Shown here piece after piece: positions 2,079 through 62,942 of a stretch of DNA of 64,000 bases (its first letter is position 1; every line of letters starts with the position of its first letter). The stretch is from Leptolyngbya sp. BL0902 (GTDB lineage Bacteria > Cyanobacteriota > Cyanobacteriia > Phormidesmidales > Phormidesmidaceae), in assembly GCF_016403105.1 (NCBI RefSeq), contig NZ_CP046155.1:3253906-3317905 (forward strand). Direction: 5' to 3'. Below the pieces are notes generated by a model. It was not told the origin of the DNA, did no database searches, and saw only the letters and a program-made list of their open reading frames with translations. The position numbers were made by a program, and so were the translations under genes.

Positions 2079-3944
2079 ATGGAACATCGAGTGTCATCCT
2101 TTCTTGACGGACAGCGCCTCTTAGCCGCCATCATGGTGACGGATGCGGTCGGCTTCAGTGCCCGTATGTCGGTGGATGAGGGGCTTACCCTGCGGTTAAT
2201 TGATCGAGACTTATCCCTGATTGCCCAAATCTGCGTGGATTTTGGCGGCAAAGTGCTGAAGTCTACGGGAGATGGGCTACTGATGTACTTCCTCAGTGCC
2301 GTGGAAGCGGTTTCCTGTGGTCTGGAGATGCAGCGACGGCTCGTGGATCAGTCGCTGGGTCTACCGCCAGGGCAGTATCTAGAGCACCGCATTGGCATTC
2401 ACCTAGGAGACATCGTTGTCAGCGAACAGGATGTGATGGGCAACGGCGTCAATATTACCGCCCGCCTTCAAACCTATGCCAAACCCCGTGGCCTTTGTGT
2501 CTCCCAAACCATTTTTGACGTTGTGAAAGCCCGCCTCAATCTCAATGCGGTTTTTCTGGGGGCGCTGGATCTGAAAAATATTCATGAGCCCGTTCCGGCC
2601 TACCAGATTACGCTGTACCCTGACCCCGATTCTGGGCCGCCTTCTACGGGGGAGCCCACCTACACGGTGCCCATGAGCGCCGAAGCCCTGCTCGGATCGG
2701 CCATCCATGCCCTGACGGTTCATGAGCAATCGGTGCGGATCAAAAAGCTGATCTTTGCTACCTACCAGCAGGCGTGGGAGAACGATACCTCGGTGCTCAA
2801 CCAGTTTGATCTGCACACCCTGCTGCTGGCCCTGCGGGAACGCTATCCTACCCTAGGCGACCTAGAGCAGCAGATCCAGCGAGTGGTGATGGGATTGAAT
2901 CGGCAGGGGGTATATGCCGAAGTAGCGGCCCTGATTTTGCGAGAGCTTCAGCCTTGGTATGTGCGTACCCTGCGGCCTACCACAGAGGAGCTTCAAAACG
3001 AATCCACGGTGCTAACGGTACGATCCCTCGAAGAGCGGTGTGGCTTGGTGGCCCAACGGTTGGATCAACAGGCCGATAGCCTGCGTCTACGGAAGCTGCT
3101 GTACTGTCTCGCCTACAATACCTGGGAAAACGACGTCTCGATCCTTGAACAGGCCAACCTACCGCAGTTAATCCAGCAGGTGTTCCAAGCCACGCCCCAA
3201 ATTCAAGATCTGCGCTATCACCTGGGGCGGATTGTCAAACGCCTCAACCGCAAGCGGGAGTATACGCGGTTGGCCAATATGCTTATCCAATCGCTCCAGC
3301 CCATCTATGCCACTGCCGGAGCCCAGCTTGCGGTACCCCCCAGCAGCGATCCCCAAGACTCTGCCCCCGATCACACCGTGGTAACGCCGCTGCCGCCCGC
3401 CACCTCTGGAGAGCGTGAGGTAACGGTAATTCAGACGGCGTCTCCTCCCCTCGTTCACCAGGGTATTGTCGTGTCTGGGGCGGGTCTGGGGAGCCGTCCG
3501 GCGCGAGATCGCCGAGTGTTGTTTGACCTGCGAACGGATATTTTGCAGTATGCTAACCCTCTGCGGGCTAAGATTCTCCTGCACTCCTGTCTCCATGGCC
3601 CTTTTAGCTATACCGACCAGGATTGGGTGAACCTCAGGCATACTACCCTGGAGGACTTGCTTCACGGGATTTTTGAGTATTGTCCTAGCTTTGCAGACCT
3701 GGAGAGCAAGCTAACGATCATGGCCCATTGTTTGGGGCAAGCTGAGGAGGTTCTTCCGGTTGCCGATAGTATTACCCGCGCCATTCGGGCATACTATCCC
3801 CAGGATCCTGAGGTGGCCCTAGAGCCCCTGCCCCCCCTGTCAGAGCCCGTGCCATCGGCTGATGCCTCGACGACCCATGCGTCCTCCCCGACTTCTCCTA
3901 GTTCTCCGTCGTCGCCCCCATCTTCGGCGCTTTTCTCCGCCTAA
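2079..3944 (+). CDS. Class III adenylate cyclase with three C-terminal helical repeats
   Basis: Protein of 621 aa from ATG 2079; an in-frame GTG at 2073 is an alternative start. Residues about 10-190 form a class III nucleotidyl cyclase domain. All catalytic positions can be assigned: metal-binding D22 (VTDAVGF) and D65 (TGDG), adenine-selecting K61 and D118, and transition-state N125 and R129 (GVNITAR). It should therefore be an active homodimeric cyclase making cAMP. The rest holds three copies of an ~80-residue helical unit (about 217-293, 333-409, 493-572). The first two share WEND, a hydrophobic spacer and LQPxY; the third is diverged. The tail after about 575 is low-complexity Pro/Ser. 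No membrane segment or classic sensor domain is seen. The repeats may sense or dock something; their family is not recognised. Confidence 0.85.
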   Translation: MEHRVSSFLDGQRLLAAIMVTDAVGFSARMSVDEGLTLRLIDRDLSLIAQICVDFGGKVLKSTGDGLLMYFLSAVEAVSCGLEMQRRLVDQSLGLPPGQYLEHRIGIHLGDIVVSEQDVMGNGVNITARLQTYAKPRGLCVSQTIFDVVKARLNLNAVFLGALDLKNIHEPVPAYQITLYPDPDSGPPSTGEPTYTVPMSAEALLGSAIHALTVHEQSVRIKKLIFATYQQAWENDTSVLNQFDLHTLLLALRERYPTLGDLEQQIQRVVMGLNRQGVYAEVAALILRELQPWYVRTLRPTTEELQNESTVLTVRSLEERCGLVAQRLDQQADSLRLRKLLYCLAYNTWENDVSILEQANLPQLIQQVFQATPQIQDLRYHLGRIVKRLNRKREYTRLANMLIQSLQPIYATAGAQLAVPPSSDPQDSAPDHTVVTPLPPATSGEREVTVIQTASPPLVHQGIVVSGAGLGSRPARDRRVLFDLRTDILQYANPLRAKILLHSCLHGPFSYTDQDWVNLRHTTLEDLLHGIFEYCPSFADLESKLTIMAHCLGQAEEVLPVADSITRAIRAYYPQDPEVALEPLPPLSEPVPSADASTTHASSPTSPSSPSSPPSSALFSA

Positions 3945-3962
3945 GGTCCCTAGGGTCTTTGT

Positions 3963-4955
3963 ATGAATGCCACTGAATTGCTGCAATCCTATGCCCGTGG
4001 GGACATGGACTTTAAAGGTCTAACCCTAGTGGGGATTGACCTAGCTGGAGCTGACTTGATCGGAGCCAATTTAGTGCAGGCCGATTTGGAAAATGCCAAT
4101 CTGACCCTGGCCTATCTGAATCGCGTGCGGCTGCGGCAGGCCAATCTGTCTCGGGCGCAGATGGGGGGAGCCAATTTGAACCAGGCAGATTTATCAGCAG
4201 CCATTTTGCACGATGCCGATCTGCACGGTGCATCGCTCCAAGGGGCCGACCTCCGCAGCGCCAACATTACCTTAGCCGATCTCCTCGATGCCAATCTGAT
4301 GGGGGCCGACCTTCGCAATGCCGACCTCAGCGGCGCGAACCTCACGGGAGCCTGTCTGCGGGGGGCCAACCTGCGCCAAGAAAATCGTAAGTACATTACC
4401 AACCTGCGAGGCGCTAAGCTGCACCAGGCCGATCTGCGGGGCACCAACCTTTCCGGGGCAAACCTAGCCGCCGTTGACCTCAGCCGTGCCAACCTCAGTG
4501 AAGCCGTCCTGCGAGAGGCTAACCTGAAGGGAGCCAACCTGAAGGGAGCCATCTTGATCAATGCCAATTTTTCGGGTGCTGACCTCAGTGGGGCCAATTT
4601 AGATGACACCGACCTCACCCAAGGCCGATTCTCCCGCAGCGATTTGACCCTGGCTCAGATTAACCGCGTTCGAGGCCGGGGCGCAGACTTTACCGATGCC
4701 CTGCTGAAACAAGCTCAGCTCAACCGCTGCGACTTCCAGAACAGCCGCTTTACCCGTGCCGACCTCGCCCGCGCCAGCCTGCGCGGCAGTTGCCTGGTGA
4801 AAGCGATGTTTGTGCAAGCCTATCTCGGACGGGCTGACCTCACCGACACCGACTTCACAGAAGCCGTTCTGGATCGAGCCGAAATGAGCAGCGCCATCGT
4901 CATGAACACGCTTTTGACCAACGCCACCATGCCCGATGGCAGCATTCACGAATAA
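3963..4955 (+). CDS. Pentapeptide-repeat protein
   Basis: Protein of 330 aa, 18 bp after the cyclase gene and probably co-transcribed with it. After about 20 residues nearly the whole chain is A(D/N)LxX pentapeptides, predicted to fold as a right-handed quadrilateral beta-helix. One break, around RQENRKYITN (about residue 140), interrupts the pattern and could be a loop between two coils. There is no signal peptide or extra domain, so it is probably cytosolic. Such proteins are abundant in cyanobacteria and most have no known function; a DNA-mimic gyrase-protecting role is known for some relatives but nothing here argues for it. Base use is like its neighbours. Confidence 0.9.
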   Translation: MNATELLQSYARGDMDFKGLTLVGIDLAGADLIGANLVQADLENANLTLAYLNRVRLRQANLSRAQMGGANLNQADLSAAILHDADLHGASLQGADLRSANITLADLLDANLMGADLRNADLSGANLTGACLRGANLRQENRKYITNLRGAKLHQADLRGTNLSGANLAAVDLSRANLSEAVLREANLKGANLKGAILINANFSGADLSGANLDDTDLTQGRFSRSDLTLAQINRVRGRGADFTDALLKQAQLNRCDFQNSRFTRADLARASLRGSCLVKAMFVQAYLGRADLTDTDFTEAVLDRAEMSSAIVMNTLLTNATMPDGSIHE

Positions 4956-5001
4956 CCTATGCCCTAGATGAGGGCGTCTTGCCCACGAGTGAGGGGGAAA
5001 G

Positions 5002-5691
5002 TTATTGGGCCATAGGAGCGTCAGCCAAGGTCGTCAGCGCCAACTTGGCCCTAGCCTGCACTGCTAGGGTGTTATCCTGTTGCATCACTCGCTGAAGCTG
5101 TTGCTGAATCGCTGTGAACTCCTGCGTACATGAGGTTTCGTCGATAGCGAGAGCCAAGCCTTGCAACCCCACCACGGCGGCATAGCGCACCACCCATTCG
5201 GGGTCTTCGGTGCCTTGAATCAACGCTTGCAAACTCTGGGATTGGGCGGCGGCGACTTGCTCAGCCGGGAGTAACGCCCAGTTGAGGTGTCCTAATCCCT
5301 TCGCCGCTGCCCGCCGGACACTGAGGGCAAAATCTCCGGTGGCGGTTTCCAGCAAAATCTTCAACGCACGGGGATCGCCAATCAGCGACAGGGCACGAAT
5401 CGCCCAAGCCCTCGCCCCGTAGTTATAGCCGTCCAACTCTTCTAGCAGAGCCGGAACCGCAGATTCGCCCAGGGCCACTAGGCCATCCACCGCCGCCACC
5501 GCCGCCCCAGGATTGTTGTAGCCCAAGACCTGAATTAGGGTCGGAATCGCCCCCGGATGCCGTTGCGCCGCCAACCGCCCCACAGCCACCACCATCGCCC
5601 CCTTCGAGTCGGCCTCTTCTACGGCACGAATCAACGGGGCCAAGTCTTCGTTAATGGTGCTGGGTTGATCCACGCTAGGACTCTCTTTCAC
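5002..5691 (-). CDS. cpcF: Phycocyanobilin lyase subunit CpcF
   Basis: 229-aa HEAT-like repeat protein, the partner of CpcE in the heterodimeric lyase that attaches phycocyanobilin to Cys84 of phycocyanin alpha. The chain shows repeated helical pairs with Ala-rich HEAT signatures (GALPxLIxxL-type units, VRRAAAKGLGHL). The start is GTG at 5691, as no ATG fits the family N-terminus. It is the last gene of the cpc cluster, separated from cpcE by 240 bp holding dispersed repeats, so it may have its own transcript or depend on read-through. Its 3' end converges with the pentapeptide gene 46 bp away. Confidence 0.9.
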   Translation of the reverse strand: MKESPSVDQPSTINEDLAPLIRAVEEADSKGAMVVAVGRLAAQRHPGAIPTLIQVLGYNNPGAAVAAVDGLVALGESAVPALLEELDGYNYGARAWAIRALSLIGDPRALKILLETATGDFALSVRRAAAKGLGHLNWALLPAEQVAAAQSQSLQALIQGTEDPEWVVRYAAVVGLQGLALAIDETSCTQEFTAIQQQLQRVMQQDNTLAVQARAKLALTTLADAPMAQ

Positions 5692-55241: not shown

Positions 55242-55506
55242 TGTAAGTTACAGGCAGAGTGGTGTGATCTGTTCGGCTCCACTTCTCCTAACTCAACAGG
55301 ACGGTGTTACAGCGGTTTAGGTGCCGGGGCTGGATGGTTTATCATACGGATCCTGCCTTGCCTCTATGACATCACCGCCTCGGCCTTGTGAGGCTTCTTA
55401 AATTGTCCAAGGTTTCGACCATGATTTAGCCAATTCTTTGATGGATTGGCTCATTCTTTGACCGCTTGCTTCAGCCTTAACCCCTCGCTTGTTAACCTGC
55501 TATCCC

Positions 55507-58500
55507 ATGGGACATACACCTGTGAACCACTCGCATCCCTCGCTGCCTCAATCCTCTGCTCCTTGGCCCAACTGGGGGCCAAAGTCCATCGTAGAAGAGC
55601 GGGATGCTTGCGGCGTTGGCTTTTTGGCCGATCAGCAGAATCGCGCCAGCCACGACCTCGTTTCCAGAGCCTTGGCGGCGTTGGACTGCATGGAACACCG
55701 AGGCGGCTGTTGTGCGGATCAAGATTCCGGCGATGGCGCTGGGGTGATGACGGCCATTCCCTGGGCAATTTTGCAGGATTGGGCAGCGGCGTCTGGTAAA
55801 TCGGCCCTCAATCCCGCACAAACGGGCGTGAGCATGATCTTTTTGCCCCAGCATGAGGCCGCAGCGGCCCTGGTTCGTGATGCCTTCGAGCGCGTCATTA
55901 AAGACGAAGGTTTCACGCTCGTAGGCTGGCGGCAGGTGCCCGTTAATCCCGATGTTTTGGGCGCTTTGGCCAAGCAGTTCCAGCCCCATATTGAACAGTT
56001 GGTTGTTGCTTCGGAGTCGGCCACTGGGGAAGACCTGGAGCGCAAGCTCTACCTCGTGCGGCGGCAGGTGCTCCATGCCATTGCCCAACTGAAAACAGGC
56101 GGTACACTACCTGCTGAGCAGGTGGCCGCTCTAGGAGATTTCTACGTCTGCTCCTTCTCCTGCCGCACGATTGTATACAAGGGGATGGTGCGCTCCTCGG
56201 TGCTGGCCAGCTTCTACAGCGACCTGACCAACCCCGCCTTTGTTAGCGCCTTTGCGGTGTATCACCGTCGCTTTAGCACCAACACCATGCCCAAGTGGCC
56301 CCTGGCGCACCCCATGCGGTTGCTGGGGCACAACGGCGAAATCAATACCCTGGTGGGCAACGTCAACTGGATGATGGCGCGGCAGGCGGATCTCGCCAAC
56401 GAGGTGTGGGGCGACCGGGTGGATTTGCTGAAGCCCATCGTTAACCTCGACAACAGCGACTCCGCCAACCTCGATAACGTGATGGAGATGCTGGTGCGGT
56501 CGGGTCGCACGCCCCAGGAAGCGCTAATGATCCTAGTGCCGGAGGCCTACAACAACCAGCCTGCCCTCGATCAATATCCCGAAATTACCGATTTCTACGA
56601 GTACTACAGCGGCCTGCAAGAACCCTGGGATGGCCCTGCACTGGTGGTCTTCAGCGACGGTCATCAGGTGGGGGCAACCCTGGATCGCAACGGTTTGCGT
56701 CCCGCCCGCTACGTGGTGACGAAGGACGGTCTGCTGATGGTGTCCTCGGAAGCGGGTGTGCTGGATGTGGCCGCCAGCGACATTGTGGAAAAGGGGCGGC
56801 TTGGCCCTGGCCAGATGATCGCTGTGGATCTCGATACCCACGAAATTTTGAAGAACTGGACGCTGAAGCAGCGGGTGGCCCACCGTCATCCCTACGGCGA
56901 CTGGCTGAAAGCGAACCGCAAGGACATTTCGCCCCAGTTGTTCGCGGAAGCCAGCCTCTACGACGGCGAGGCACTGCTGAAGCAGCAAAACGCCTTTGGC
57001 TACACCGTCGAGGATGTGGACATGATCATCCAAGACATGGCGGCCCAGGGCAAGGAACCCACCTACTGCATGGGCGACGACATCCCCCTGGCGGTGCTGT
57101 CCGACAAGCCTCACCTGCTCTACGACTACTTCAAACAGCGCTTTGCCCAGGTGACGAACCCCGCCATTGACCCCCTGCGGGAGCGGCTGGTAATGTCGCT
57201 GACGACCCAACTGGGGGCACGGGGCAACCTGCTGGATGAAAAGCCCGAATATGCTCGTCTGCTGAAGCTGGAAAGCCCGGTGATCAACGAGGTGGAACTC
57301 AACCAAATTCACCAGTCCGGCTTTGACACCGCAACGCTCTCGACCCTATACACCCTGGCCGCTGGCCCTGGTGACCTGGCCAAGGCAGTGGATGCCCTCT
57401 GTGAGCAGGCCGACCAGGCGGTGAAGGCTGGGAAAACCATTCTGGTGCTGAGCGATCGCGTCGATGCCAGCGGCAACCCCATCACCCTCAGCGCCGACAC
57501 CACCTACATTCCGCCCCTGCTGGCCGTGGGTGCCGTGCACCATCACCTGATCCGCAACGGTCTACGGATGCACACCTCCCTGGTGGTCGATACCGCCCAG
57601 TGCTGGAGCACCCACCACTTTGCCTGTTTGATTGGCTATGGGGCCAGTGCCGTGTGTCCTTACCTGGCGCTGGAATCGGTGCGCCACTGGTGGTCGGATA
57701 GCCGCACCCAAAAGCTGATGGAAAGCGGCAAGCTGCCTGTGTCTACCCTCAACGGTGCCCAAGACAACTACCGGAAGGCGGTGGATGCGGGTCTGCTGAA
57801 AATCCTCTCCAAGATGGGGATTTCCCTGATCACCAGCTACCAGGGGGCGCAGATTTTTGAGGCCATTGGCATTGGCGAAGACCTGCTGGAACTGGCCTTC
57901 CGGGGCACCACCTCGCGGCTGGGGGGCTTGTCCTTGGCAGACCTGGCCCAGGAGACAATGAGCTTCCACCAGCGGGCCTTCCCCGAAACCGCCAAGCGCC
58001 TGCAAAACATGGGCTTTGTGCAGTCTCGGCCCAGCGGCGAGTATCACATGAACAACCCGGCCATGACCAAGCTGCTGCACAAGGCCGTGGCGGATCGCCA
58101 GTACGACCACTACGAACTCTACAAAGAGCAGCTTGAGAACCGTCCCCTCACTGCCCTGCGCGACCTGCTGGATCTCCAGAGCGACCGTCAGCCCATTCCC
58201 CTGGATCAGGTGGAGTCGGTGGAGTCGATTATGAAGCGGTTCTGCACCGGGGGGATGTCCCTGGGGGCGCTGTCCCGCGAGGCCCACGAGGTGCTGGCCA
58301 TCGCCATGAACCGCATCGGCGGCAAGTCCAACTCCGGCGAGGGCGGCGAAGATCCCGTGCGCTTCAACGTGCTGAAGGATGTGGATGGCGAGGGCAACTC
58401 TCCTACCTTCCCCCACCTGCGCGGCCTGAAGAACGGCGACACCGCCAGTTCCGCCATCAAACAGGTAGCCTCCGGTCGGTTTGGGGTAACGCCGGAATAC

Positions 58501-60186
58501 CTGATGCACGCCCAGCAGATTGAAATCAAGCTGGCCCAAGGCGCGAAACCCGGTGAAGGGGGCCAGCTCCCCGGTAAGAAGGTCAGCCCCTACATCGCCA
58601 TGCTGCGCCGCTCCAAGCCGGGAGTATCGCTGATTTCGCCGCCGCCCCACCACGATATTTACTCCATCGAAGACCTAGCCCAGCTCATCTTTGACCTGCA
58701 CCAGATCAACCCCAAGGCGGGCGTTTCCGTGAAGCTGGTGTCTGAGGTGGGCATTGGCACCATTGCGGCGGGGGTGGCCAAGGCCAACGCCGATATCATC
58801 CAAGTCTCTGGCCACGATGGCGGTACGGGCGCGTCGCCCCTCAGCTCCATCAAGCACGCCGGGGTGCCCTGGGAACTGGGCCTCACCGAAGTCCACAAGG
58901 TGCTGCTGGATAACCAACTGCGCGACCGTGTGACCTTGCGCGTGGATGGCGGCCTGAAGACGGGCTGGGATGTGGTTATGGGTGCCCTGATGGGGGCCGA
59001 GGAATTCGGCTTTGGCTCCATCGCCATGATTGCCGAGGGCTGCATTATGGCCCGCGTGTGCCACACCAACAACTGCCCCGTCGGCGTCGCCACCCAGAAG
59101 GAGGAACTCCGCAAGCGGTTTACGGGCATTCCCGAACACGTCGTCAACTTCTTCTACTACATCGCCGAGGAAGTGCGCTCCCTGCTGGCACGGCTGGGCT
59201 ATGCCAACCTGCTCGACATCGTCGGTCGCTCTGACCTCCTGAAGCCCCGCGACGGTGTGAAACCTGCCAAAACCCAGTCCCTCCACCTGGAGACCCTGAT
59301 CAACCTGCCCGACGTGCGCCAAGACCGGAGCTGGCTCACCCATGAGGCCGTCCACAGTAACGGCCCCGTGCTGGATGACACCATCCTGGCCGATGCCGAC
59401 GTGCAGCAGGCCATCCACAACCAGGGCACCGTCGCCAAGTCCTATAAAGTCATCAACACCGACCGCACCGTGGGCGCACGGGTGGCGGGGGTGATTGCCG
59501 ATAAGTACGGCAATGCTGGCTTTGAGGGGCAACTGAACCTCACCTTTGAGGGCAGCGCTGGCCAAAGCTTTGGCGCGTTCAACCTGCCGGGGATGACCCT
59601 TACTTTGATCGGCGAGTCGAACGACTATGTGGGCAAAGGCATGAACGGCGGCGAACTGGTGGTGAAACCCCCCGTAGACATCACCTACGATCCCTCCCAG
59701 AACGTGATCATCGGCAACACCTGCCTCTATGGCGCAACGGGCGGCACCCTCTATGCCCTTGGTCGGGCTGGGGAACGCTTTGCGGTACGGAACTCCAAGG
59801 GGCAAGCCGTCATCGAAGGGGCAGGCGACCACTGCTGCGAATACATGACGGGCGGTGTCGTCGTCGTCCTCGGCCCGGTGGGTCGCAATGTGGGTGCCGG
59901 GATGACGGGCGGCTTGGCCTACTTCCTCGATGAAGACGGCAACTTCCCCACCCTGGTGAACCCGGAAATCGTGAAGGTGCAGCGAGTGATTACCCCCGCC
60001 GGAGAGGCCCAGTTGAAGAGCCTGATTGAGGCCCACGTTGCCCACACGGGCAGCGCCAAGGCCCAGCGGATTTTGGATAACTGGAGTGAGTATCTACCCA
60101 AGTTCTGGCAGGTGGTGCCCCCCTCCGAGGCGGATAGCCCAGAGGCAAATCCATCGGAAAAGGTGCTGAGTTCAGCGCAGTCCTAA
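55507..60186 (+). CDS. gltS: Ferredoxin-dependent glutamate synthase
   Basis: 1559-aa GOGAT large chain from ATG 55507. N-terminal class II amidotransferase with catalytic Cys in DACGVGFLA (matured by removal of the leader), central domain, FMN-binding synthase barrel ([23 protein letters not shown]), 3Fe-4S cysteines in [10 protein letters not shown], and the C-terminal GXGXG beta-helix ([23 protein letters not shown]). Makes glutamate from glutamine and 2-oxoglutarate. No small GltD subunit lies nearby, which fits the ferredoxin type; the NADH type cannot be fully excluded. Followed by an intrinsic terminator. Confidence 0.95.
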
Positions 60187-60198
60187 TGTCCTGATACC

Positions 60199-60230
60199 AA
60201 GAACCCCGGCTTCTTAAAGAAACCGGGGTT
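60199..60230 (+). terminator. Palindromic repeat acting as gltS terminator (left copy)
   Basis: 32-bp element with arms AACCCCGG (60202-60209) and CCGGGGTT (60223-60230), an inner TTCTT-AAAGAA pairing, followed by TTTTG. It starts 13 bases after the stop of glutamate synthase. An exact inverted copy lies at 63313-63344 beyond the clamp-HNH/MNT-HEPN island. Confidence 0.85.
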
Positions 60231-60284
60231 TTGAGTAATAAGGGAATCGTGGTAAGGCTATTCCCAAACATGGGTAAAATCGCC

Positions 60285-62030
60285 ATGAAATTTAGTTGTC
60301 CACAAAGTGAACTCAATCATCACCTGTCCCTGGTGAGTCGGGCGGTGCCCTCACGTCCAAGTCGGCCCGTCCTCGGCAACATTTTAGTGATGGCGGATGC
60401 AAAACAGCAAACCGTTACCTTAGTAGGCTCCGATGAAGCGTTGGGGATTGAGAGCTACTTTTCTGCGAAAGTTGAAACCTCTGGCAGTTTGACGGTGCCC
60501 CCTAAGCTGTGGGGTGACATTGTTTCTCGGTTGCCTAATGACGTGATACGACTCGAAACCAATGTCGATGATGAGATAACAGTCACAATAACCAGTAGCT
60601 CAGGGCGCTACGAGATTCGTGGACTGGATGCGGAAGACTATCCTTCTCTAGCAACGGTGGAGGAAGGGAATGCGGTATCCCTGTCAGCAAAGTCGCTGCT
60701 GTATGGATTAGAAGGGACTCTATTTGCCACAAGTAATGATGAAACCAAGCAGGTTTTGACCGGGGTTCATGTTCTATCAGATGCCGATACCCTCGAATTT
60801 GCGGCTACTGATGATCATCGTTTAGCCGTGGTCAAAACGGCAACTAGTGCGGCCAGTTCTATTTCAGAAATGGATATGACTGTTCCCGCTAAAGCCCTGC
60901 GGGACATAGCCTATGCCCTTAAAATCCAAGCCTTTACAGGGACAGTGGAAGTGCGTTGGGATGACACCTATGTGCTATTCGATATGGGTATTCATAGGCT
61001 AACTACGAAACTACTGGAAGGGCAATATCCAAACTATCGCCAGTTGATGCCCAAGCAGTTCGCTCGTCAAGTCATCCTTGCTCGAGATGAACTAATCAAA
61101 AGCCTGAGTCGCATAGCGCTACTGGCCAGTCAAAGAAATGACATTGCTCAATTCTCTTTGAATAACGAAGACCAGAAGATAACTCTGTCGATAGAAGTCC
61201 AGGAAGTGGCGAAGGGGCGTGAGGGCTTATCGGCCCAAATGATAGGCGATGATCTAGAAATTGCTTTTAATGTGCGCTATTTGCTGGACGGATTGAAAGC
61301 GATAGATAGCAATCAGGTGAAGATTCAGTGCAATGCAGCTACAAGTCCTGCAATATTCAGTCCTTTTGGAGAGGATGACATTACCTATCTGGTTATGCCG
61401 ATTCAAATTCGCAACGGGTCGGCAAAAGATTCTGAGGATGAAGACCGGGCAGATATTAAACAAGAAGAATCAAAAGAAATCAAGGCCGTAAAGTCAGAAA
61501 TTCTTAGGGACGAAGAATCAGGAAATATTGATTCTGAAGAGTCTGAAGATCTTAGTCTCAATGAATCTGACTGGCTAGACTCCATTGAAATTGCTGCTCT
61601 TGAAGATGAGAGGGAAAAAGATCTAAAGCTGGTCATCATTCGCGAAGGCCAAGCTGTATTCAGGGAAAAACTGCTCTCTGCCTATGACGGACGGTGTGCA
61701 ATCACAGGTTATTCAGTCAAGGATGTTTTAGAGGCGGCCCATATTGTTCCCTGTCTAGGTGTGAAAACTAATCACCTATCCAATGGGTTGATTCTGAGAT
61801 CCGACTTACATAAGCTATTTGACTCATTCAAGATTACCGTCAACCCAGACACATTAACGGTCTGCGTAGCTCCAGATTTAATGAACACTGAGTACCATGA
61901 GTTGGATGGAAGACCTCTGAGAAAGGTGCAGCCTAACTATCCACCCGTGAGCAGGGCAGCTTTAAGGCATCATCTGAATCAATGTATTTGGTTTAACGAT
62001 GATGTCCTTAATCACCATGAAGTACCGTAA
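60285..62030 (+). CDS. DNA polymerase III beta-clamp paralogue fused to an HNH endonuclease
   Basis: 581 aa from ATG 60285, which gives the DnaN N-terminus (MKFSCPQSELNHHLSLVSRA); ATG 60270 and TTG 60231 are alternatives. Residues 1-376 form a full three-domain sliding clamp ending TYLVMPIQIR, where ordinary DnaN stops. An acidic linker rich in Glu, Asp, Ser and Lys follows (about 377-455). Residues about 456-560 are an HNH nuclease: FREKLLSAYDGRCAITG, H486 in EAAHI, N500 in SNGLIL, H509 in DLHKLFD. The clamp C-terminus lies on the partner-binding face, so the nuclease would be tethered where polymerases dock. It is probably not the housekeeping dnaN. An MNT-HEPN pair follows. Role unknown; defence is inferred. 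Confidence 0.88.
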   Translation: MKFSCPQSELNHHLSLVSRAVPSRPSRPVLGNILVMADAKQQTVTLVGSDEALGIESYFSAKVETSGSLTVPPKLWGDIVSRLPNDVIRLETNVDDEITVTITSSSGRYEIRGLDAEDYPSLATVEEGNAVSLSAKSLLYGLEGTLFATSNDETKQVLTGVHVLSDADTLEFAATDDHRLAVVKTATSAASSISEMDMTVPAKALRDIAYALKIQAFTGTVEVRWDDTYVLFDMGIHRLTTKLLEGQYPNYRQLMPKQFARQVILARDELIKSLSRIALLASQRNDIAQFSLNNEDQKITLSIEVQEVAKGREGLSAQMIGDDLEIAFNVRYLLDGLKAIDSNQVKIQCNAATSPAIFSPFGEDDITYLVMPIQIRNGSAKDSEDEDRADIKQEESKEIKAVKSEILRDEESGNIDSEESEDLSLNESDWLDSIEIAALEDEREKDLKLVIIREGQAVFREKLLSAYDGRCAITGYSVKDVLEAAHIVPCLGVKTNHLSNGLILRSDLHKLFDSFKITVNPDTLTVCVAPDLMNTEYHELDGRPLRKVQPNYPPVSRAALRHHLNQCIWFNDDVLNHHEVP

Positions 62031-62054
62031 CAGAACAGATGGACAACCGCTAGG

Positions 62055-62068
62055 CTAGGCTAGCCTAG
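62055..62068. repeat. CTAGGCTAGCCTAG palindrome
   Basis: Perfect 14-bp palindrome 25 bases after the clamp-HNH stop, preceded by CTAGG and followed by AAAGTCTTTT. Could be a weak terminator or a protein-binding site. Confidence 0.45.
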
Positions 62069-62116
62069 AAAGTCTTTTATGATGGGATAAGGCCGTTACT
62101 GGGGCATGGGTTTGCG

Positions 62117-62218
62117 ATGACATCACCCTTTCCGGGCATGGATCCTTATCTGGAACAGTCGTCGTTTCCATGGCCTCACGGATGCAGAATTGTAAGTTAT
62201 TCAAGGAGCCTAAAATGA
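62117..62218 (+). pseudogene. Remnant of a DUF4058-family gene (N-terminus only)
   Basis: ATG 62117 starts MTSPFPGMDPYLEQ, the hallmark N-terminus of the DUF4058 family (normally over 200 aa). After about 17 residues the homology ends (SSFPWPHGCRIVSYSRSLK) and the frame closes at TGA 62218. The stop overlaps the mntA start (ATGA). The remainder was probably lost when the toxin-antitoxin pair arrived, leaving a short leader peptide frame. Confidence 0.65.
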
Positions 62219-62556
62219 AAACTCTGACTCCACCTTTGTCAGCCAGCATTCAACTCACTCTCACCCATTGCAAGCAGCGGCTACAGCAATACTATGCCGA
62301 TAGATTTAAAGTCCTAATTCTCTATGGATCTGCGGCCAAACAGCAATTAACCCCCCAGAGTGATCTAGATTTGTTAGTGCTGTTAGAACCGCCCTTAGAC
62401 TATTTCCAAGAACTGCGGGCTATTGTTGATTTACTCTATCCCTTACAACTAGATTCCAGTTATTGGATTTCAGCTAAACCAGCCGCTACTACTGAGTTTG
62501 AGCAAGGTTTAACTCAACTTTATCGCAATATCCATCAAGAAGGTATTGCCCTATGA
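62215..62556 (+). CDS. mntA: MNT-type nucleotidyltransferase antitoxin
   Basis: 113 aa from ATG 62215 with a strong ribosome site (AAGGAG 7 bases upstream). Minimal nucleotidyltransferase fold: LYGSAAKQQ...QSDLDLL is the GS-x10-DxD motif with both metal Asp. In MNT-HEPN pairs this protein AMPylates and silences the HEPN toxin. Its stop overlaps the next start by 4 bases. Confidence 0.88.
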   Translation: MKTLTPPLSASIQLTLTHCKQRLQQYYADRFKVLILYGSAAKQQLTPQSDLDLLVLLEPPLDYFQELRAIVDLLYPLQLDSSYWISAKPAATTEFEQGLTQLYRNIHQEGIAL

Positions 62557-62942
62557 GTAGTACGCCTGAGATAGAATCTCATCTAGAACGAGCGGCTTCG
62601 TCCTTGCAAGCGGCAAACCTGTTGCGTTCGGCTGAGTTGCCCAATGATGCCGTATCCAGAGCCTATTATGCTATTTTCCACGCAGCATCTGCTTTGTTGC
62701 TAGCACAAAATTTAGAGTTTAAGAGTCATGCCGGGGTTTTGAGAGCGATCAGCTTAAATTTTGTGAAACCTGGAATATTGGAAAATAGTATGGGACGAGA
62801 TTTGAATTGGTTAGCCGAGTTGCGCCAAATCGCTGACTATGGGGAAATACGCAATGTTTCTATCCTAGATGTCGATAATGCAATCACGATTGCTGATGCT
62901 TTCCTGAACCAAGTGCATCAACTCCTAGAACGTGACCTGTGA
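62553..62942 (+). CDS. hepT: HEPN-domain toxin
   Basis: 129-aa all-helical HEPN protein, a predicted RNase. RAYYAIFHAA carries the R-x6-H catalytic motif. The classic RX4HXY target Tyr of Shewanella HepT is not in the same place, so control by AMPylation may use another residue (the YY in RAYYAIF is a candidate). Translationally coupled to mntA by an ATGA overlap. Confidence 0.88.
   Translation: MSSTPEIESHLERAASSLQAANLLRSAELPNDAVSRAYYAIFHAASALLLAQNLEFKSHAGVLRAISLNFVKPGILENSMGRDLNWLAELRQIADYGEIRNVSILDVDNAITIADAFLNQVHQLLERDL

Follow-up and report, generated by a model that had tools for sequence, protein, structure and literature searches.

In the window, a stretch of 64,000 nucleotides from the genome of Leptolyngbya sp. 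BL0902, we identified a gene that joins a complete DnaN sliding clamp to a C-terminal HNH nuclease (Table 1). To judge by its sequence, the protein represents a new domain combination, in which a modular HNH_2 nuclease carries an N-terminal part not seen before; the combination is rare. Our leading interpretation, held with somewhat less than even confidence, is that the protein may be an accessory nuclease specific to this lineage and targeted by topology, a restriction-type enzyme in which ring loading would replace base recognition and which would cut the DNA threaded through the ring. More tentatively, it might be the first natural clamp with a built-in nuclease, one that loads as a ring on replicating DNA and cuts fast replicators, the host forks being spared by dose, pairing or an inhibitory linker.

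Table 1. Features of the clamp-HNH fusion gene and its neighbours in the window of Leptolyngbya sp. BL0902.
Feature	Coordinates	Strand	Basis
Glutamate synthase gene (gltB-like), upstream neighbour, outside the system	55489..60186	+	named by reading the sequence; same upstream neighbour in FACHB-1136
Clamp-HNH fusion gene, 581 aa	60285..62030	+	translation with one stop, Pfam, NCBIfam
DnaN beta-clamp part, residues 1-377	60285..61415	+	Pfam, TIGR00663, AlphaFold2/Foldseek, identity to ordinary DnaN
Acidic linker, residues 378-440	61416..61604	+	23 D/E and 7 K/R in 63 residues
HNH nuclease module, residues 441-581	61605..62027	+	PF13391, conserved columns, nearest solved sequence VcaM4I 6yex
HNH_2 core, residues 471-520	61695-61844	+	PF13391
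Motif codon H486	61740-61742	+	
Motif codon N500	61782-61784	+	
Motif codon H509	61809-61811	+	
Nucleotidyltransferase (MntA-like antitoxin)	62170..62556	+	PF01909, PF18765; NF047752 below cut-off
HEPN-domain protein	62553..62942	+	PF05168

The preliminary description of this DNA had read a complete DnaN clamp, an acidic linker and an HNH domain with H486, N500 and H509 in a single frame, and the Pfam and NCBIfam searches bore this architecture out above the family cut-offs. All three clamp domains were recognised by Pfam (PF00712 at residues 1-122, PF02767 at 137-250 and PF02768 at 252-373, each above its cut-off), and the NCBIfam model TIGR00663 for dnaN matched residues 1-374 with 332.8 bits (cut-off 137.65). 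The HNH_2 family (PF13391) was found at residues 471-520 with an E value of 3.6e-14 and 52.8 bits against a gathering cut-off of 21, and the H-N-H residues of the family are present. The clamp tail VMPIQI sits at residues 370-375, directly followed by the acidic linker, and we therefore placed the end of the clamp at about 375-377, in agreement with residue 376 as given earlier. By eye, the last part of the linker looks like the stretch found ahead of HNH in other members of the class. A clamp-binding peptide hidden in the linker was considered and dropped after inspection by eye, because this conserved pre-HNH stretch is similar to the one in proteins with other N-terminal parts. The gene has two possible in-frame starts further upstream (TTG at 60231 and ATG at 60270). 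AlphaFold2 modelled 343 of the 581 residues with a pLDDT of at least 90, the clamp half folding well, and a solved clamp was the best PDB match of the model by Foldseek, with an E value of 1.7e-37. For the HNH half the pLDDT stayed below 50 because its alignment was poor; viral clamps had been added to the AlphaFold2 alignment and three HNH-only rows (L024, L025 and L026) were misaligned.

A frame or assembly artefact, a concern raised together with the first reading, is excluded because a second genome, that of Phormidium sp. FACHB-1136, encodes the same fusion in a single open frame. The protein of FACHB-1136 has 562 aa, is 71% identical to that of BL0902 and is also encoded behind gltB. We searched both carriers for a second, ordinary dnaN and found one in each. 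In BL0902, with its genome of 4.7 Mb on six contigs, it lies on the same contig as the fusion, and its product is 70% identical to the clamp half. As the fusion is kept beside an intact dnaN in two species, it is not the only, replicative clamp of the cell. The possibility that the same fusion acts as the housekeeping clamp in all relatives was refuted as well: it is present in only 2 of 26 genomes of the genus (six of the 26 being less than 90% complete or more than 5% contaminated), namely in BL0902 and FACHB-1136.

Wider searches returned the same picture. Among 63 genomes of the family the fusion was found in the same two only. For 386 sampled genomes of the phylum, a set without FACHB-1136 in which up to three candidates per genome were scored, the matches listed include a full-length one in BL0902 only. 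When the HNH part was compared with 388 genomes of the class (E 1e-20), identity above 80% was seen only in the two carriers, and the other listed matches were 32-49% identical. The linker with the HNH part, searched against 84,980 species genomes in a scan that reaches near relatives only, recovered FACHB-1136 and three distant HNH proteins. A search of IMG/VR, likewise reaching near relatives only, gave no relative of the whole fusion or of the HNH part, and although 148 phage and 1545 plasmid records gave a match, no single one of them spans 80% of the fusion in one place. With no full-length match, these collections lend no support to a viral origin. Viral contigs do encode clamps, which reach 48% identity to the clamp part of the fusion, and none of the best 80 of 179 viral clamps extends for more than 26 residues beyond the clamp match. 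Nor do C-terminal fusions seem common in clamps, as none of seven long clamp frames, picked by eye among the phylum-sample matches listed, was extended (at most two residues after the clamp match). The two carrier species are closely related, and within the searched genomes the fusion is rare.

The HNH half appears from its relatives to be the C-terminal cutter of modular restriction-type proteins. At E 1e-20 the module is present in 37 of the 388 genomes of the class, the two carriers included. We compared it with 36 other HNH rows (28 loci of the class search and 8 earlier ones, with one protein in twice), in which H486 is kept in 34 and N500, H509 and D513 in all 36. Both fusions retain H486 and the seven columns invariant in these rows (R453, R460, C471, N500, L504, H509 and D513), and both depart at some of the less strict columns, e.g. 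S506, S514 and K516. The clamp profile matched none of the 36 other HNH proteins. The partners named by Pfam in 20 proteins were WD40, TPR, pentapeptide and DUF7662 domains, many N-terminal parts are unnamed, and EVE-like parts before HNH were recognised by eye. By sequence, the nearest solved structure is the EVE-HNH restriction enzyme VcaM4I (6yex, E 4.6e-6), a type IV, modification-dependent enzyme with the same kind of C-terminal HNH, whose H224, N241, D250 and D254 align with H486, N500, H509 and D513 of the fusion. VcaM4I and the modular HNH restriction-type enzymes differ from the fusion in that their N-terminal part is a modification sensor, where the fusion has a sliding clamp; no sensor of modified DNA (EVE, SRA, SBD or winged helix) is among the four Pfam and four NCBIfam matches of the fusion. 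An NCBIfam model of phosphorothioate restriction matches the HNH half below its cut-off, and two generic HNH models of PADLOC match the fusion over the HNH half only.

The HNH_2 modules that stand behind WD40, TPR, pentapeptide and unnamed parts in cyanobacteria form a broad modular nuclease set, examples of which lie at L050:3428-4918 (minus), L127:499-1911, L133:631-1902 and L112:1474-3351 (minus). We also noticed pentapeptide-repeat proteins in frames of 1000-1100 aa (L052:154-3453, minus, on G000:C1, and L053:441-3440) with an HNH-like stretch that is about one third identical. The motif residues of this stretch look lost by eye, and a Pfam scan gave no HNH_2 match in it.

Recent local duplication of the dnaN of the genus is the most likely origin of the clamp half, because in a tree of 42 clamps the two fusion clamps form one clade (support 100/100) that is nested within the genus, next to its own dnaN (99/96). 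Their branches are long, with a stem of 0.24 and tips of 0.29 and 0.31, where the nearest dnaN tips measure 0.02-0.05, and the tree tool marks the position of long rows, that of the FACHB-1136 fusion included, as uncertain. At 136 columns conserved in 39 housekeeping clamps, the fusion of BL0902 departs at 17 and that of FACHB-1136 at 24, so that 119 and 112 columns, respectively, are kept; housekeeping clamps left out one by one showed 0-13 departures (of 136-141 columns). Position 205, which we take to be a DNA-contact residue of the E. coli clamp, is changed too. Every one of the 39 housekeeping clamps has R or K there and the fusions have Y and H, a change that would speak against tight passage of DNA if this role is right.

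Eight conserved positions are changed in both fusions, and four of the eight fall in segments that we take to form the subunit interface of the E. coli clamp, as do 20 of the 136 conserved columns (Fisher p 0.017, with the segments chosen after the changes had been seen). These shared changes may be a hint, no more, in favour of self-pairing. At single interface positions (E. coli numbering), some of them taken from a review, residues 106, 273 and 304 are as in housekeeping clamps in both fusions, I78L is found in one, and 108 and 298 are changed in both. The residues of the partner-binding cleft, also taken from the review, are mostly as in the 39 housekeeping clamps in subsites I and II. Subsite I is changed in each fusion, position 174 being D in one and positions 246/247 D/S in the other (E. 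coli numbering). According to the same review, subsite I is also used by the delta subunit of the clamp loader, and position 174 varies among clamps. Some conserved clamp residues, subsite I included, are thus changed, which would tell against a plain working clamp.

Both halves of the fusion are under purifying selection, weaker than that on dnaN. Between BL0902 and FACHB-1136 the clamp half has a dN/dS of 0.214 (bootstrap 0.154-0.300) and the HNH half one of 0.135 (bootstrap 0.066-0.248); in the same two genomes the ratio is 0.050 for dnaN and 0.043 for gltB. As the values of the two halves are well below 1 yet above that of dnaN, both halves are maintained, under looser constraint than the replicative clamp. 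The rates were obtained by simple counting and are rough; dS is uneven between the genes (0.42 in gltB, about 0.8 in the fusion and 1.44 in dnaN), so recombination or gene conversion is possible. YN00 gave higher values than counting, 0.33 for the clamp and 0.24 for the HNH half, which are still below 1.

The base composition also sets the gene apart. GC3 in BL0902 is 0.46 in the clamp half and 0.45 in the HNH half, 0.63 in its own dnaN and 0.40/0.42 in the neighbouring nucleotidyltransferase/HEPN pair; 23 large open reading frames of the window, picked as likely genes, range from 0.53 to 0.78, each above both halves of the fusion. The corresponding values in FACHB-1136 are 0.52 for the clamp half, 0.42 for the HNH half and 0.70 for dnaN. 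Taken together with the weaker selection, this marks the gene as an accessory, fast-evolving one and not as the housekeeping clamp. A defence-like accessory role would fit better than one in replication or repair, because the gene is rare, AT-rich at third positions and fast, is adjoined by toxin-antitoxin-like pairs and carries a restriction-type cutter.

In both species the fusion lies behind gltB, directly after it in BL0902. In FACHB-1136 a nucleotidyltransferase/HEPN pair stands between the two genes (L023:6861-8702), and a second copy of 148 bp from the gltB end region immediately precedes the fusion, at 86% identity to the genome's own sequence; the interval looks like an insertion with duplication. 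Because of this intervening pair and the duplicated gltB end, the direct adjacency is probably the older state. BL0902 has another such pair 3′ of the fusion, with a HEPN-domain protein that is presumably a HepT-like toxin, and the proteins of the two species' pairs fail to cluster together. The sequence flanking gltB was retrieved from 20 further genomes of the genus; one flank was too short, and the fusion was at this site in none of the 19 compared. No sigma-70-like promoter was found at 60100-62250, where 2.5 were expected by chance, and we count this against our leading reading. The interval between gltB and the fusion holds an inverted repeat and a short T run that look terminator-like to the eye and are absent from the list of the terminator scan. 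A DUF4258 protein of 118 aa is encoded 3′ of the fusion in FACHB-1136 (L023:10683-11039) and is absent beside that of BL0902.

Regarding the mechanism, the sequences indicate that the dnaN of the genus was duplicated and that the copy gained the C-terminal HNH module of modular restriction-type proteins; purifying selection has maintained the resulting fusion in two species beside the intact dnaN. We propose that the protein would form a two-subunit ring, either a homodimer or a heterodimer with the ordinary clamp, which the host clamp loader would place at primer-template junctions. The tail would leave the ring on the partner-binding face, so that one or two HNH domains may lie over the DNA emerging from it. 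The HNH domains of VcaM4I are reported to dimerise, and the double-strand break made by this enzyme is consistent with the published model of the DNA-bound dimer; by analogy, such dimers and breaks would fit a two-fold ring. A helix before HNH is described to block DNA in VcaM4I, the freed HNH domain being toxic, and the helix before HNH may similarly keep the free protein of the fusion safe. The last step is the weakest. The target might be DNA that loads many clamps, e.g. a replicating phage or plasmid, and the outcome could be replication-coupled restriction or an abortive nuclease. We take the ring-placed nuclease as the most likely reading because the HNH of VcaM4I dimerises, the clamp ring is two-fold, and mixed clamp rings form in E. 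coli in vivo by published genetic evidence. Against it, a nuclease loaded on DNA would be expected to put the host chromosome at risk, and the rarity of the fusion, the changed conserved columns and the altered subsite I also seem to count.

The best of the other explanations, itself unlikely, is that of an integrated decoy. Here the clamp part would serve as bait: phage proteins that act on the host clamp, by binding or inhibition, would dock on it and thereby free the HNH domain, with no need for loading on DNA. The structure matches include the complex 7evp of a clamp with Gp168, presumably a phage protein. The clamps encoded by viral contigs, the fast evolution of the clamp half and the position of HNH modules elsewhere behind other domains that may be sensors are also consistent with a bait. 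However, both fusions have changes in the usual docking cleft, at positions that differ between them, and no phage partner is known.

It is improbable that the fusion is a clamp-directed repair nuclease whose ring orients HNH at forks for mismatch or stalled-fork repair. Such coupling has precedents: ZRANB3 is reported to be recruited by PCNA, which stimulates its HNH endonuclease, and the clamp-binding motif of MutL is reported to contact the beta clamp. As in our proposal, ZRANB3 couples an HNH nuclease to a sliding clamp at forks, but it is described as bound to PCNA by peptide motifs, without fusion, and as having a helicase core and needing ATP; no helicase family is among the four Pfam matches of our fusion. 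A repair role is disfavoured because wider retention would be expected, and the fusion was not found in 24 of the 26 genus genomes, in a set that includes the six of lower quality mentioned above. The AT-rich third positions, the restriction-type HNH and the adjoining nucleotidyltransferase/HEPN pairs also speak against it.

More doubtful still is a subunit that pairs with the ordinary clamp, so that host rings would carry an HNH domain that acts, under control of the linker, as a switch for conditional suicide or growth arrest. The 70% identity to the cell's own DnaN, the mixed clamps of E. coli and the interface residues 106, 273 and 304 would allow such pairing, but the shared changes on the interface segments, which were chosen after the changes had been seen, could favour self-pairing instead. 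Least probable is a decaying duplicate clamp that serves only as a solubility or DNA-affinity tag for an HNH domain acting alone, since its one favourable sign, the higher dN/dS of the clamp half, comes with overlapping intervals, and against it stand a dN/dS well below 1 over 376 codons and the large share of conserved clamp columns retained.

ParB acts as a DNA clamp. Bacterial ParB-CTPase proteins fused to HNH, which have been reported as a novel fusion, resemble our protein in having a DNA-clamp-type domain with HNH, but their fold is another one and their HNH is described as PF01844, against HNH_2 here. The entries 6e8d and 6e8e of PDB hold one chain named both clamp and MutL, which resembles a clamp with part of a repair nuclease attached; it is MutL, not HNH, and looks engineered because of its two names. 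With the DnaN beta clamp itself the fusion shares the complete three-domain clamp above the family cut-off and the 70% identity to ordinary DnaN; it differs by 204 residues after the tail, by being an extra gene copy and by the changed conserved positions. We found no description of a clamp-HNH fusion in the open-access full-text literature, and the earlier statement that no bacterial system with a clamp-HNH fusion has been characterised held to that extent. Many enzymes are directed to DNA by clamps via short peptides, and here the link is covalent and leads to a nuclease; a housekeeping replication gene has thereby come to supply the N-terminal half of a restriction-type protein. If the fusion is active on loaded rings, foreign DNA would be told by its mode of replication and not by sequence or marks, and the protein would offer a ready-made tool for replication-coupled cutting.

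Other additional clamps were encountered in the genus. Two further genomes encode extra, unfused clamps in frames of 387 and 426 aa (L046 on G019:C20 and L047 on G002:C2), 49% and 36% identical to the clamp part of the fusion, respectively. BL0902 has in addition a very divergent third clamp of 499 aa on a contig of 158 kb, 22% identical to the clamp part. Divergent clamps of this kind are present in 2 of the 26 genus genomes, BL0902 and FACHB-1136, which are also the two with the fusion, and this co-occurrence may be due to chance because the two are close relatives. At the BL0902 locus (L048, G000:C2:38000-47000; frames 409-1392, 2178-3593 and 3627-5126, all on the minus strand) the third clamp adjoins, by eye, DnaX-like and HolA-like subunits of a clamp loader, and a similar divergent clamp set is found in FACHB-1136 (G015:C236, L049).
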